The notes under the pieces: model-generated
What the model saw: the letters and a program-made list of their open reading frames with translations, nothing else
Told to the model about the DNA's origin: nothing
Database searches by the model: none
Position numbers and translations under genes: made by a program
NCBI RefSeq assembly: GCF_014279895.1
Contig: NZ_CP047954.1
Span: forward strand, 1,550,001 to 1,614,000
DNA: 64,000 nucleotides
Source of the DNA: Synechococcus sp. M16.1
GTDB taxonomy: Bacteria > Cyanobacteriota > Cyanobacteriia > PCC-6307 > Cyanobiaceae
Reading direction: 5' to 3'
Shown here: piece by piece, positions 1 to 11,516 of the stretch
Layout of the letters: each line of letters begins with the position of its first letter
How positions within the stretch are numbered: position 1 is the first letter of the stretch

Positions 1-525
1 CTGCACCGTGGGTGGGCAGTGAATGATCGACTCCTCCCAGACCGTGCCGCGCTGGGAATCGTTCATGTAATGGCACTCATCGAGCACCACCGCTTCCACA
101 TCAGCCAGGGGATCGTCATGCTCATCCGCCTCGGCGTAGAGCATGTTGCGGAAGATCTCCGTGGTCATCACCACGATCGAGGCCTCGCGATTCACGCTGA
201 GGTCACCGGTCATCAAACCCACGTTCTCCGCACCGAAGTGATCGCGGAAATCGCGCAGTTTCTGGTTGGACAGAGCCTTCAGCGGTGTTGTGTAAAAGAC
301 CTTCTGGCCATGGGCCAGGGCGCGATGAATGGCGTATTCCCCGATCAGCGTCTTACCGGATCCCGTAGGGGCACTGACCACGACCGAGTGCCCCTGGTTG
401 AGGGCATCCGTGGCCTCCAGCTGGAAATCATCCAGGGGGAAAGGAAAGATGTCTGAAGCCTTCAGCGGAGCACTGGAATCGACATCGGACTCGGATCGGG
501 GGGTGACCGGTGTCGATTGGTTCAT
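1..525 (-). CDS. Ski2-like DExH-box RNA helicase, N-terminal part (partial)
   Basis: The gene starts at an ATG whose last base is 525 and runs off the left edge, leaving about 175 residues. The visible part carries motif I APTGSGKT (about residues 52-59), motif Ia TTPLKALSNQK and motif II DECHYMND, the order and spelling typical of superfamily 2 Ski2/Mtr4-like helicases found in cyanobacteria. Such enzymes unwind RNA using ATP. The first 30 residues are polar and low in complexity. The C-terminal domains are outside the window, so the exact subfamily cannot be fixed. The neighbour at 772 is divergent, separated by about 245 bases with a promoter-like site and a terminator. Confidence 0.85.
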   Translation of the reverse strand, partial: MNQSTPVTPRSESDVDSSAPLKASDIFPFPLDDFQLEATDALNQGHSVVVSAPTGSGKTLIGEYAIHRALAHGQKVFYTTPLKALSNQKLRDFRDHFGAENVGLMTGDLSVNREASIVVMTTEIFRNMLYAEADEHDDPLADVEAVVLDECHYMNDSQRGTVWEESIIHCPPTVQ

Positions 526-613
526 CGAATGATCTTAAGGAGCCTGGCTGAGCACTCTTTTCAACCAAGCGATAAGCCACGCCAATGCAATCAATCAGAT
601 GTGCCGACCTCCT

Positions 614-642
614 TTGACGGGACCCAACCGAATCATTAAAAA
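614..642 (+). promoter_or_regulatory. Candidate sigma70-type promoter
   Basis: TTGACG at 614-619 and TAAAAA at 637-642 are separated by 17 bases, matching the -35/-10 layout (5 of 6 and 4 of 6 consensus bases). The expected start would be near 650, just before the terminator at 662-691 and 120 bases before the GTG of the gene at 772. No experimental support. Confidence 0.35.
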
Positions 643-661
643 TGTTGAAGAGAATGTATCG

Positions 662-691
662 AGCTCTGGCAAGCACACCAGAGCTTTTTTT
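662..691 (+). terminator. Rho-independent terminator between two divergent genes
   Basis: Perfect 8-bp stem AGCTCTGG (662-669) / CCAGAGCT (678-685) with an 8-base loop, followed by a run of seven T (685-691). The T run lies on the + strand side only, so it terminates rightward transcription. No protein gene ends upstream on this strand, so it either ends a short RNA or acts as an attenuator before the gene at 772. Confidence 0.75.
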
Positions 692-771
692 GTGCCTGCA
701 ATTAAGCGGTCGAAATGGTGACAGCGGCACTTCGCCGGTGCCATGACAGAGGAGAACGAACGCCACGGCCT

Positions 772-1002
772 GTGACCAGCACCCAGCTCACCAAGCCGCG
801 GCCGGCTGAAGACACCCTGATCGATGCCCTGAGGGGCTGCCGCGACGTGAAGGAGCTGAAGGCCCTCGAACAACGCCTGGCATCCACAACCGATGCGCCG
901 CCGCTGTTCACCTGGATCTGCGATCTGCTCGTGGCACGACGCATCTCCCGTGGCCTCGCCGCCCGCCTGCTGTTTGAACTCCACAACGGGGACTCGACCT
1001 AG
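772..1002 (+). CDS. Small conserved-looking protein of unknown function
   Basis: The frame opens at a GTG preceded by an AGGAG-like sequence about 15 bases upstream and encodes 76 residues. A longer version from 715 is possible but its N-terminus looks like non-coding translation. The product is mostly helical, with a charged centre (KELKALEQRLA) and a C-terminal hydrophobic helix containing ARRISRGLAARLLF; there is no signal peptide or clear membrane segment. I do not recognise the family. Its stop overlaps the 3' end of the convergent transporter gene by four bases. Confidence 0.55.
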   Translation: MTSTQLTKPRPAEDTLIDALRGCRDVKELKALEQRLASTTDAPPLFTWICDLLVARRISRGLAARLLFELHNGDST

Positions 1003-1919
1003 GGCGAGCGGCGCCTCCACACGGCAGCAAGGGCACTGCCGATCAGGCAGTGAATCACTGCAGAGATGGCACCCGGCAACGCCGTAAGGGGACTGGCGAA
1101 CCCGCCACTGCGGGCGAGCACCACGGCCAGTCCCGAGTTCTGCATGCCCACCTCGATGCTGATGGTGCGCTGAGCCTGCACGCTCTGCCCCGCCAGCAGG
1201 GGAATCAGCCAGCCGAGCAGGAAGCCGCCGCCATGCAGCAGCAGGCAAGCCAGGATCAGCACAGGCCCCTGCTGACGCAGCACAGCCGTCTGGCTGCCCA
1301 CGATGCTGGAGACGATCATCACGATGGCCATCACCGCCAGGGGAGGCATCACCGGCTCAATCCGCTGGGCCACACCAGGCAGACCACGCTTGAGTACAAC
1401 CCCAACGGTGACCGGCAGCAACACCACCTGAAGCACGGCCAGGAACAGAGCCCAACCGTCCACCGGCACGTACTGGCTGGCCAACACCTGCGTGAGACGC
1501 GGGGTCAACACCACCGCCGCCAGGGTGCTGATCGTGGTCATGACCACCGACAGCGCCACATCGCCACGGCCGATCAGAGCCACCACATTGCTGGCGGTCC
1601 CCCCCGGGCAGCAGCCGACCAGAATCAAGCCCACCGCAAGCGGGGCAGGCAGATGAAGAGCCGCCGCGATCCCAGCGGCAAGGCCCGGCATCACCAGAAA
1701 CTGCACCAGCACCCCCAGCAGCATGGCGCGGGGGCGTCGACCCACCCGGACGAAATCAGCGGGTGTCAACCCAACGCCCATGCCGAGCATGATCACGCCG
1801 AGTCCAAGGGCGATCAGTGGCCCCTTGAACCAGATGAACAGCGGGGGATGCAGCAAGGCCAGCAGAGCTCCCAGCAACGTCCAAAGCGGAAAGAGCAGAG
1901 TGAAACGCTCCCAGGTCAT
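999..1919 (-). CDS. Bile acid:sodium symporter family (BASS) transporter
   Basis: A 306-residue integral membrane protein with about nine to ten hydrophobic segments. The pattern GVIMLGMGVGLTPADF followed by LILVGCCPGGTASNVV and the later EVGMQNSGLAVVLA are hallmarks of the BASS/SBF fold, which couples sodium entry to uptake of organic anions. In cyanobacteria and plastids related proteins move pyruvate, bicarbonate or 2-keto acids, but the substrate cannot be read from sequence. The open frame continues upstream to 2291, but that extension is the antisense of bioF; the ATG at 1919 gives the usual family length. It is divergent from bioF with about 50 bases between starts, so the promoters must overlap. 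Confidence 0.9.
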   Translation of the reverse strand: MTWERFTLLFPLWTLLGALLALLHPPLFIWFKGPLIALGLGVIMLGMGVGLTPADFVRVGRRPRAMLLGVLVQFLVMPGLAAGIAAALHLPAPLAVGLILVGCCPGGTASNVVALIGRGDVALSVVMTTISTLAAVVLTPRLTQVLASQYVPVDGWALFLAVLQVVLLPVTVGVVLKRGLPGVAQRIEPVMPPLAVMAIVMIVSSIVGSQTAVLRQQGPVLILACLLLHGGGFLLGWLIPLLAGQSVQAQRTISIEVGMQNSGLAVVLARSGGFASPLTALPGAISAVIHCLIGSALAAVWRRRSP

Positions 1920-7738: not shown

Positions 7739-8470
7739 ATGGCCGCCACCGCGCCTGAACCGGCGTTCTGGGACGCCCTGGAATGGCAGCCATCGCAGGC
7801 GCAGCGCGACCAGCTGATGGAGCTTCAGGGCCTGCTGCAGAGCTGGAATGAACGGGTCAACCTGACGCGCCTGGTGAACGGCGACGATTTCTGGATTGGT
7901 CAGGTGTTCGACAGCCTCTGGCCGCTGGCGGCGGAACTCCAGTCCGCAGACGAGCCGCAGCACTGGATTGATGTGGGAACCGGAGGAGGCTTCCCCGGCC
8001 TCGCCATCGCCATTGCCCTTCCCCAGGCACAGGTGACCCTGCTGGATTCCGTCGGACGCAAGACCGCCGCCGTGGAGGCCATGGCCGGAAGCCTGGGCCT
8101 TGCCGATCGGTTGCGGGTCCGCACCGAGCGGATCGAAACCACCGGGCGCGATCGCCACTTCCGCGGCAGCTTCGATCGCGCCGTAGCCCGGGCTGTGGCA
8201 GCAGCTCCCGTGGTGGCCGAATACCTGGTGCCCTTGCTGAAGAGCGACGGCCAGGCCCTGCTGTATCGGGGCCAGTGGACGGACAGCGATGCCGTGCCGT
8301 TCAACAGGGCCCTGCGGCTGCTTAAGGGCCATCTGATCGAGGTGCAGCACCGGGAACTGCCCGGTGATCGCGGCACGCGGCACCTGCTGCGGGTGCAACC
8401 GAACGGCCCCTGCCCCCGCAGCTACCCAAGGGCCGTGGGAACACCCAGCCGGGATCCTCTGGGGAGCTAA
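7739..8470 (+). CDS. rsmG: 16S rRNA (guanine-527-N7)-methyltransferase
   Basis: SAM-dependent methylation of G527 in 16S rRNA. The 243-residue product has the RsmG pattern: [12 protein letters not shown], then FDSLWPL, the SAM loop [29 protein letters not shown] and [10 protein letters not shown]. The last 25 residues or so are a Pro/Arg-rich extension without homology that I recognise. Translation begins at the ATG at 7739. Confidence 0.93.
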
Positions 8471-8479
8471 AAGGAACGC

Positions 8480-9679
8480 TCAGACGCTCGACAAGCGCAT
8501 CTGGGATTCGCCCTTGAGCCGCTGCTTGAGGCTGCGCAGAATCTCTGGGATGCGCTCACGCCACGGGCTCTCCTGCAGGACGCTCTGCAGCTCTTCGGCA
8601 CTGACCTCCGCATCAAAGCCATCGGCATTGGCCCCGGCAAACCAGTGGCCGCCGGAGCCCAGCAACCCATAGCGGGCCTTGGCATAACTCTCGAGATCCC
8701 AGGCCTCCAGCAGGTTGTACAGCCAAAGCAACACCGGCAGGTTGATCTCCCCAGGCGTCGCATGCCAAGGCGGCAGACCGACGGACCAGGTGGCCATCCA
8801 GTCACGACCCAATGCTTCATCGGCCGCCTGCCGAAGCCGCTGATCCACTGGAGCAACCAAGGACGCTGCCTCCGGCAGAAGGCGCAACGCCTCCAGGTGA
8901 AGCTCGAGATCCTCCGGCCGGGCCGCTCCCACGCTGATGGTGTGAACCCGCGGATCCTGGAGACAGAACAGGTCGTTGAAGACGATGGGATGCAGCGGTG
9001 CACACAGCTCCAACAGCCGTTGGGATGGCGTGTGCAGATGGCCGCCCTTGTCAGTGGGACTGATGATGAACACCCCCATGTCCTGACGGCGGGCCGCATC
9101 CAAGGCAGGGCCGTTGTCCTGGCGGATGTAATACCAGTGCAGATTCACGTAATCGAAGGCACCGGAGTCGCAGGCCTGTGCGATCAAAGCGGTGGGGCCA
9201 TGGGTGGAGAAACCCACGTGACCAATACGGCCCTCCGCCTGCCAGCGGCGCACCACCTCCATGCAGCCCCCGGGTTGAAGGGTCTGCTCAAGATGCTCCG
9301 GCAGGTTGATGCCGTGGATGGCCAGTAAATCAAGGCGATCACAGCCCAACCGCTCAAAACTGAGCTCCAGCTCCGCCTCGAAGGCGTCGGCATCGGGCCG
9401 GGGAGGCACCTTGCTCTGCAGCAGACGGGAGGGGTCGGGTGTGCGCGGCAAGGCCCAGCCCAGCTGACGTTCGGAGCTGCCGTAGTGCCGCGCCGTTTCC
9501 ACATGGTGAAAGCCCAGATCCACCGCGCGCTTCAGAGTCGCCTCGAGCTGGGTCTGCGATGCAGACGTGATCTCATCAGCTGGAAGGTCGGTCCAGCTCT
9601 GCTGAAAGCGCATTCCCCCGAGAGACAACAGGGGGATCTCAAGCTCCGTGCGGCCGAATCGGCGGGTGGGAAGCGCCAT
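8480..9679 (-). CDS. Aldo/keto reductase with a cysteine-free C-terminal domain
   Basis: A 399-residue COG1453-type oxidoreductase. Residues 1-270 form an aldo/keto reductase barrel: FGRTELEIPLLSLGGMRFQ, HHVETARHYGSSE (with the catalytic Tyr), LLAIHGIN and HVGFSTHGP. In family members I know, the C-terminal part binds iron-sulfur clusters through motifs like CxxCxxCxxxCP ahead of a LYN and HWFPG segment. Here the scaffold remains (EINLPVLLWLYN about 310-321, GGHWFAG about 345-351) but every cysteine is gone; all five cysteines of the protein lie in the barrel. The start ATG overlaps the stop of a ferredoxin gene by one base, suggesting a working pair. Substrate unknown. Confidence 0.88.
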   Translation of the reverse strand: MALPTRRFGRTELEIPLLSLGGMRFQQSWTDLPADEITSASQTQLEATLKRAVDLGFHHVETARHYGSSERQLGWALPRTPDPSRLLQSKVPPRPDADAFEAELELSFERLGCDRLDLLAIHGINLPEHLEQTLQPGGCMEVVRRWQAEGRIGHVGFSTHGPTALIAQACDSGAFDYVNLHWYYIRQDNGPALDAARRQDMGVFIISPTDKGGHLHTPSQRLLELCAPLHPIVFNDLFCLQDPRVHTISVGAARPEDLELHLEALRLLPEAASLVAPVDQRLRQAADEALGRDWMATWSVGLPPWHATPGEINLPVLLWLYNLLEAWDLESYAKARYGLLGSGGHWFAGANADGFDAEVSAEELQSVLQESPWRERIPEILRSLKQRLKGESQMRLSSV

Positions 9680-9942
9680 CAACCCTGGGGACGCGGTTGC
9701 AGATTCTGGCGAATCAGGTTTTGCCGCAACGTTTCCAACGATTCAAAGGGAACCCAGTGAATGCAATCCACAGGACAGGTGTCGATGGCCTCCTGAATGC
9801 ATTCGGTGGAGTCACCGTCCTGCCGGATGGCCCTTGAGCGTCCCAGATGCGGCTCAACAACAAAGGTGTTCGCAGCCACGTGAGCGCAGTATCGACAGCC
9901 GATGCAGACGGCTTCATCCACCCAGACAGCCTGATCGCGCAT
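9679..9942 (-). CDS. 4Fe-4S ferredoxin
   Basis: An 87-residue ferredoxin. Cluster ligands are visible in VCIGCRYCAHVA (three Cys) and DTCPVDCIHWV; the cysteine in TECIQEA may be structural. It resembles the single-cluster ferredoxins of cyanobacteria that carry low-potential electrons. The TGA at 9679-9681 overlaps the ATG of the downstream aldo/keto reductase by one base, so the two are translated together; the ferredoxin probably supplies or receives electrons for that enzyme (inference). The 90 bases upstream to 10033 hold its promoter, which I could not define. Confidence 0.9.
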   Translation of the reverse strand: MRDQAVWVDEAVCIGCRYCAHVAANTFVVEPHLGRSRAIRQDGDSTECIQEAIDTCPVDCIHWVPFESLETLRQNLIRQNLQPRPQG

Positions 9943-10032: not shown

Positions 10033-10425
10033 TCAGGCGTCCCAGCGGGTCACCACGAGTTCGATCGAACCATCCTCGGTTTGGGTCTGCTCGGCAACCT
10101 GAAATCCTTCCTTAGTGGTTGCAGCCAGAACCGTATTCAGGGCGTAGCGCTGGGTGAGCTTGGAGAGAAAACGTTCCACAGGAATCTGCTGCTTCCACAG
10201 ATCAAGGTCGGTGACCAGCTCATAGGACTCCGATGAGCTGTTCCAGCGGAAACCGATGTCACCACCGTCCTGCACGGCGATGGCCAGATCAGCGGTGACG
10301 GTCTGGCCGCGGTAGCCGCGCACGGGACGTTCACCCTGATCAGGGGCATAGCCCATGTCTTCCAGGGCTTTCACCAGAGGCTCCAGCTGACGCAGTTCGG
10401 TTTTGACGGTGCTGAAATGCGACAT
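10033..10425 (-). CDS. ycf35: DUF1257 / Ycf35 family protein
   Basis: A 130-residue soluble protein starting MSHFSTVKTELRQLEPLVKA, the characteristic opening of the Ycf35 (DUF1257) family found in cyanobacteria and some algal plastids. The later GYRGQTVTADLAI, GGDIGFRWN and DLWKQQIPVERFLSKL segments also match. Function unknown. The start overlaps the stop of the upstream DUF2997 gene by one base, a pairing common in cyanobacteria. Confidence 0.9.
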   Translation of the reverse strand: MSHFSTVKTELRQLEPLVKALEDMGYAPDQGERPVRGYRGQTVTADLAIAVQDGGDIGFRWNSSSESYELVTDLDLWKQQIPVERFLSKLTQRYALNTVLAATTKEGFQVAEQTQTEDGSIELVVTRWDA

Positions 10426-10628
10426 CAGTTCAAATGAGCGGGAAGAGACTGGGACTGGACCTCAGGCTGCAGAAACGCTTCGGATGTGGACTCCTGACGT
10501 TCAACCGTTCCAAGAGCAGCTTCCACTTCTTCAGTGAGCTGCTGGCACGCTTCACCAGCAACACCCTCGACCCGTTCTTCCACACGGCCGTCAGGCCGAA
10601 TGGTGAAACGAATGGTCTTCTGGGGCAT
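10425..10628 (-). CDS. DUF2997 family protein
   Basis: A 67-residue protein with the DUF2997 core: IRFTIRPDGRVEERVEGVAG followed by CQQLTEEVEAALG. In this family the strand-turn-strand region TIRPDGRV is diagnostic. It is translationally coupled to ycf35 (TGATG). Function unknown; the consistent pairing suggests the two proteins act together. Confidence 0.82.
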   Translation of the reverse strand: MPQKTIRFTIRPDGRVEERVEGVAGEACQQLTEEVEAALGTVERQESTSEAFLQPEVQSQSLPAHLN

Positions 10629-10703: not shown

Positions 10704-11516
10704 CTACAGGATGAAACCGTCGTTGATCAGAGCCTGCAGGCGTTCCAGCACCAGCGGATCCTCCAGCTGCTCGAGGGCCGTTCTGGCCTCATCGCGCACG
10801 GAGATCTCCCCGTCATGGAGCAGGGAACTCACCAAGGCTTCAACGATCTCGGCTTGCCGCGGCTGCACCAGCTGATCCATCAAACGGCCCAAAGCCCAGA
10901 TGCAGTTGCTGCGCACCACCGCTTCACTGTCGATGCGCAGACTCACCAGCAATTGCCCCGCTGCGGGATCGGCCTTGACCGGGGAACGGCTGCCGGCTTC
11001 CGCCAGGGATCCCGGACACCAGAGGCGCACCGCTGCGACATCCGTCTGCAGCGCCCGGATCAACGGATTGAGCACCGGAGCATCGGGGAAATTGCCCAGG
11101 CTCCAGGCCGCAGCCTTGCGGACGTAGGCATTGGCATCGAGCTGAAGCAGCTGCAACAGCGGCTCAACAGCCGGCGGCGATGGATTGCGGCCCAAGGCGT
11201 AGACGGCACTCATCCGCTCCACCGGACAGGAGTTCTGGAGCAAGGGCAGCAGCAGGGCAATCGAACGGGGATCACGGTGTTCACAAAACACCTGCAGGCC
11301 CTGCAGCCGTTCTCCGTGGTTGCCACGCAACCAGACCAGGCCCTGGTCACAGGCCCGGGCAATCTCTAGGGAGGAATCCTGCTCGGCGTCATCGAGCTGG
11401 ATTGCATCAAGCGGATCAACGTCGTCTTCCGCCGCCAGCTCACGCGCCAGCAGATCAGGATCAACAGAGAGGCTGGACAGCCCCTGGTCCTTCTGTTGGC
11501 TGCGGTCGTCAGTCAT
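10704..11516 (-). CDS. HEAT-repeat (PBS lyase-like) protein
   Basis: A 270-residue protein built of HEAT-like repeats from about residue 70 onward: RSIALLLPLLQ, RMSAVYALGRN, PPAVEPLLQLLQ, VRKAAAWSLGNF, LNPLIRALQ, VVRSNCIWALGRL and ISVRDEARTALEQL. The first 60 residues are acidic and polar. Related repeats occur in phycobilin lyases of the CpcE/F type and in phycobilisome degradation factors, but no other phycobilisome gene lies nearby, so a scaffold role is all that can be claimed. ATG start at 11516; no overlap with neighbours. Confidence 0.8.
   Translation of the reverse strand: MTDDRSQQKDQGLSSLSVDPDLLARELAAEDDVDPLDAIQLDDAEQDSSLEIARACDQGLVWLRGNHGERLQGLQVFCEHRDPRSIALLLPLLQNSCPVERMSAVYALGRNPSPPAVEPLLQLLQLDANAYVRKAAAWSLGNFPDAPVLNPLIRALQTDVAAVRLWCPGSLAEAGSRSPVKADPAAGQLLVSLRIDSEAVVRSNCIWALGRLMDQLVQPRQAEIVEALVSSLLHDGEISVRDEARTALEQLEDPLVLERLQALINDGFIL

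Follow-up and report, generated by a model that had tools for sequence, protein, structure and literature searches.

The closest described relatives of the protein discussed here are the COG1453-type reductases, aldo/keto reductases (AKRs) with a C-terminal domain that holds two [4Fe-4S] clusters. A literature search returned no characterised function for these reductases (its mention of COG1453 was unrelated) and nothing on point for a cyanobacterial iron-sulfur AKR. A second described system is 'cluster g', the gene order DUF2997-ycf35-fed7, which is found in nearly all cyanobacteria (Table 1, PMC4284462).

The window, a stretch of 64,000 nucleotides from Synechococcus sp. M16.1, contains genes related to both systems. 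The reductase, called type A here, has the same barrel as the COG1453-type proteins (P0007 from the same genome; Monoglobus WP_320690838.1; Parabacteroides WP_005855423.1) and a homologous C-terminal helical domain. In contrast to them, it lacks all eight cysteine ligands and has a four-residue insertion in the cluster-1 loop. Judged by sequence, it is a conserved, cluster-free variant of a reductase family that is itself already known. The ferredoxin and the genes upstream of it match those of Synechocystis Fed7 (Sll0662), and the gene order in the window agrees with cluster g (PMC4284462); picocyanobacteria differ in that type A is added at the 3' end.

The type A reductase and its C-terminal domain

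The type A gene (8480..9679, minus strand) starts with the ATG at 9679, stops at 8480 and encodes 399 residues. The protein belongs to the AKR superfamily (PF00248, E 9.2e-16, 58.2 bits against a cut-off of 24) and has orthologues throughout the oxygenic cyanobacteria; no Fer4 domain was found in it with Pfam. It shares the TIM barrel and the putative Tyr/Lys/His catalytic positions with other AKRs (e.g. 7ezl and 3n6q); it differs from them in its extra C-terminal domain and in having glutamate in place of the usual catalytic aspartate.

The putative catalytic tetrad (9314..9499, minus strand) comprises E61, Y66, K90 and H122, assigned on the general pattern of the AKR family. All four residues are invariant in the 78 type A sequences aligned. 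Y66, K90 and H122 would correspond to three members of the usual Asp-Tyr-Lys-His tetrad; the Asp position is Glu61 in type A and is also Glu in the cluster-bearing paralogue, type B. This glutamate forms an ETA motif in both cyanobacterial types (9314-9499 in the window; L002), whereas relatives from other phyla have aspartate.

The 399 residues include cysteines at 113, 139, 170, 226 and 239 only; the statement in the initial annotation that no cysteine follows about residue 260 is therefore correct. Cys 139, 226 and 239 of the window protein (P0001) are near-invariant in type A (78, 77 and 78 of 78 sequences, respectively), and Cys 226 is also present in type B.

The C-terminal helical domain (8483..8830, minus strand) is homologous to the domain that carries two [4Fe-4S] clusters in the paralogues. 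When the C-terminal segment of about 118 residues was compared alone with the cluster-bearing paralogues, profile against profile, hhalign gave a probability of 99.8% (E 9e-30); the maximum for 20 column-shuffled control profiles was 1.8%. GHWFPG and RYxxL segments are common to the type A domain and the cluster domain.

To follow the fate of the ligands, 78 type A proteins were aligned with 21 of type B. All eight ligand columns are cysteine in every type B protein; the two CxxCxxCxxxCP motifs are not present in the window protein, which retains none of the eight ligands. In the relic of the cluster-1 motif (8756..8797, minus strand), M295, W298, G301 and T308 stand in place of the four cysteines, and the four-residue insertion is found here; Ser, Leu, Trp and Thr, as initially read at the four cluster positions, do not agree with this alignment. 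In the relic of the cluster-2 motif (8567..8605, minus strand), the four cysteines are replaced by V359, L364, V367 and S371. Cysteine is the common residue at the cluster-1 columns in 0 of 78 type A and 21 of 21 type B proteins. At cluster 2, three columns are without cysteine in type A, and the column of residue 367, the third ligand, is still cysteine in 41 of the 78.

Type A proteins share less identity with their orthologues over the C-terminal domain than over the barrel; in type B the reverse is observed. Such a pattern would be expected from the lifting of the ligand constraint while a structural one stayed. The alignments support the view that the type A domain is a degenerate cluster domain, descended from a cluster-binding one. 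The initial annotation had proposed a cluster domain with replaced cysteines; this proposal stands on the homology, the missing ligands and the vestigial cysteine, and also on the single type A clade and the relatives with both motifs described below. If the domain were instead an unrelated helical cap that never bound clusters, and its likeness to the cluster domain due to chance, the lack of a Fer4 match in the window protein would be explained. The profile match, the common GHWFPG and RYxxL segments and the ligand cysteine in 41 of 78 sequences all speak against this; the alignment already refutes it, and we give it practically no credence.

The cluster-bearing paralogue and the ancestry of the ligand loss

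The host genome (2.11 Mb) has a second AKR relative (C1:516460-517503), which is 37% identical to the type A protein of the window and carries both cluster motifs, CKQCQACLPCP and CERCGECLPRCP. Its Pfam matches are AKR and Fer4_9, the latter at threshold (27.1 bits, cut-off 27). Type A differs from type B in an extra N-terminal segment around residues 26-38.

Relatives were sought at E 1e-15 in a sample of 116 genomes from the phylum. They were found in 53 genomes of the photosynthetic class, nearly all with exactly two each, and were absent at this threshold from the sampled genomes of other classes. Type A is present in 50 and type B in 52 of the 53 photosynthetic genomes. Going by these matches, oxygenic cyanobacteria have two AKRs of this kind, the cluster-bearing type B and the cluster-free type A. 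A phage or plasmid origin of type A was considered and rejected: the search for phage relatives gave only distant AKRs (a single phage match, 28% identical over 55% of the query), as did the plasmid collection.

Among relatives from other phyla, five proteins of Bacillota and Bacteroidota have the two cluster motifs. In a maximum-likelihood tree, type A forms a single clade (100/100) with a long stem, and cyanobacterial types A and B together are split from the five proteins (100/100); the outgroup consists of these five sequences only and has long branches. An Acetoanaerobium row in the wrong reading frame was left out of the tree. Type B is either a clade or the stem from which type A arises. 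Given the motifs in the outgroup, the type A clade and the separation of both types from the outgroup, the ancestor was most simply cluster-bearing and the ligands were lost once. This single loss most simply predates the divergence of the sampled cyanobacterial families. The ligands would thus have been gone already in an ancestor shared by nearly all cyanobacteria, well before the ferredoxin came to lie beside the gene.

Fed7 and the conserved gene block

Directly upstream of type A on the minus strand is a gene for an 87-residue [4Fe-4S] ferredoxin (9679..9942; PF13370, E 1.3e-15). It has the CxxCxxC...CP motif of Fed7, with cysteines at residues 13, 16, 19 and 56; context and similarity identify it as the orthologue of Synechocystis Fed7 (sll0662). 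The last base of its TGA is the first of the type A ATG (TGATG), which confirms the one-base overlap noted in the initial annotation. Further upstream on the same strand are genes for a Ycf35/DUF1257 protein (10033..10425; PF06868, E 2e-39), a DUF2997 protein (10425..10628; PF11211, E 2e-19) and, at the head of the block, a HEAT-repeat protein (10704..11516; HEAT_2). The stop of the DUF2997 gene and the start of ycf35 also overlap by one base (10425), giving two such overlaps in the block. On the other side of type A lies the convergent gene rsmG (7739..8470, plus strand; PF02527, TIGR00138), which was used as a control for neutral synteny. Fed7 is present in all 53 photosynthetic genomes sampled, and the DUF2997 and ycf35 genes are beside it in every locus read.

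In Cyanobiaceae, Fed7 is directly upstream of type A on the same strand in 60 of 61 loci from many genera. The two genes overlap in 30 of the 60 and are at most 39 nt apart in the rest. Outside this family, 80 named type A loci, which include Thermosynechococcus, Nostoc, Moorena, Crocosphaera and Fischerella, were searched over 5 kb or as far as the contig reached; none has Fed7, ycf35 or DUF2997 in that range. Likewise, type A is unlinked to Fed7 in 46 of the 50 type A genomes of the phylum sample. Two genomes from a single related order, G233 and G314, have type A a short way downstream of Fed7, the gap being large enough for one gene; in G233 this gene encodes a methyltransferase.

The loss of cysteines is the same in linked and unlinked type A proteins. 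As this loss is found without an adjacent ferredoxin, it is independent of the adjacency to Fed7 and earlier than it. The check for co-occurrence of cysteine loss and adjacent ferredoxin, suggested in the initial annotation, shows the adjacency to be essentially restricted to Cyanobiaceae. Homologues with this loss and no ferredoxin beside them are what the initial annotation had named as refuting its idea. Replacement by Fed7 is rejected on this pattern as the origin of the cysteine loss, and the earlier proposal of a transfer of the cluster function to the neighbouring gene product is not supported.

The two genes can also exist apart. Fed7 is present without type A in three genomes (G243, G245 and G269) and in genus g30, in which Fed7 directly faces rsmG. 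At one locus (L140, about 344-1540, minus strand; genome G034), type A is a pseudogene with homology over several frames, and the Fed7 gene beside it is intact. In genus g7 (G128), which lies within Cyanobiaceae, 11 kb separate type A from Fed7, and the two genes face in opposite directions on different strands.

The other neighbours of type A are as stable as Fed7. In the Cyanobiaceae loci rsmG is kept in convergent orientation in 59 of 61, against 60 of 61 for Fed7; the HEAT-repeat gene is present in 60 of 61, and DUF2997 and ycf35 are similarly stable. Since rsmG is convergent and can share no transcript with type A, yet is as conserved as Fed7, the adjacency of type A and Fed7 looks like block synteny. 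This is a caution against taking a conserved neighbour for a partner: the adjacency to Fed7 is real, yet it is not above that of an unrelated convergent gene.

One way to read the adjacency is that Fed7 stands in for the lost clusters and exchanges electrons with the AKR in a two-protein complex. The same-strand placement in 60 of 61 Cyanobiaceae loci, with overlap in half of these 60, and the close downstream position of type A in G233 and G314 would fit such a complex. It is made improbable by the greater age of the cysteine loss and its independence from the adjacency, by the survival of Fed7 without type A, by the separation of the genes in genus g7 and by the equal conservation of rsmG. 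In addition, the reported two-hybrid partners of Fed7 in Synechocystis are FtrC and the DnaJ protein Sll1384, with no AKR mentioned (PMC4284462). It is also very doubtful that the cluster-free domain was secondarily adapted, in Cyanobiaceae only, as a docking surface for Fed7, giving picocyanobacteria a two-protein reductase with a cluster acting in trans in place of the internal ones.

The overlap or tight spacing suggests that fed7 and type A are co-transcribed in picocyanobacteria, and this could reflect a functional link limited to Cyanobiaceae. The two genes might then form a lineage-specific operon with a shared role, such as in redox or iron stress, and no physical complex. Fed7 is induced by iron limitation in Synechocystis and is needed under it (PMC4284462); a cluster-free reductase would presumably suit low iron, and the overlap or tight spacing has been kept across many genera. 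Against this, type A has been lost and Fed7 retained in several genomes, and most cyanobacteria lack the linkage; a shared role is possible, but we regard it as rather unlikely.

Predicted fold, activity and retention of type A

An AlphaFold2 model of the whole type A protein has a pLDDT of 88.4 and a pTM of 0.88. Its C-terminal part is helical, with pLDDT mostly 80-97 except in the last ten residues or so. The best matches in a fold search of the PDB are AKRs, e.g. L-galactose dehydrogenase (7ezl) and YghZ/AKR14A1 (3n6q), which cover only part of type A (TMq about 0.55). The 50 best matches are ordinary AKRs, with no two-domain AKR and cluster protein among them, and no solved structure of this kind was recognised by sequence with either type A or type B. 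Among type A orthologues of the same genus, dN/dS is 0.04-0.11 in the barrel and 0.05-0.16 in the C-terminal domain. These ratios indicate that type A is not a dying gene and that both of its domains are under purifying selection.

We consider it likely that type A is a cluster-free COG1453-type paralogue which lost its ligands once in an ancestor, a putative NAD(P)H-dependent carbonyl reductase or dehydrogenase with a C-terminal cap, and that Fed7 belongs to a separate, older unit. The ancestor from which most cyanobacteria living today descend would have had two copies of an AKR whose C-terminal domain held two [4Fe-4S] clusters. Type B would have kept both clusters; type A would have lost its ligands in one ancestral episode, with the helical domain staying as a structural cap. 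Type A would then depend purely on NAD(P)H and carry out ordinary AKR hydride transfer at the Glu/Tyr/Lys/His centre of the barrel. The cap would not pass electrons but may shape or cover the active site. The DUF2997-ycf35-fed7 unit would be older and separate, with type A placed at its 3' end in the lineage of Cyanobiaceae and G233; this placement would have led to co-transcription, and not demonstrably to a protein complex.

Type A is a clean example from nature of a two-cluster redox domain that has lost every ligand and whose fold is under purifying selection throughout the phylum. It occurs beside a paralogue which keeps the clusters, and comparison of the two would reveal the role of the clusters in reductases of the COG1453 type.

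Seven genomes of genus g38 (G038, G063, G085, G100, G113, G125 and G136; loci L152-L158) have type A and Fed7 and no type B. These genomes are near-complete (1.8-2.0 Mb), and the cluster-free AKR alone has been kept. An in-frame stop is found in single copies of type A in Microcoleus sp. CAWBG506 (L237:5001-6176) and in G286 (L080); these stops could reflect recent loss or assembly error.
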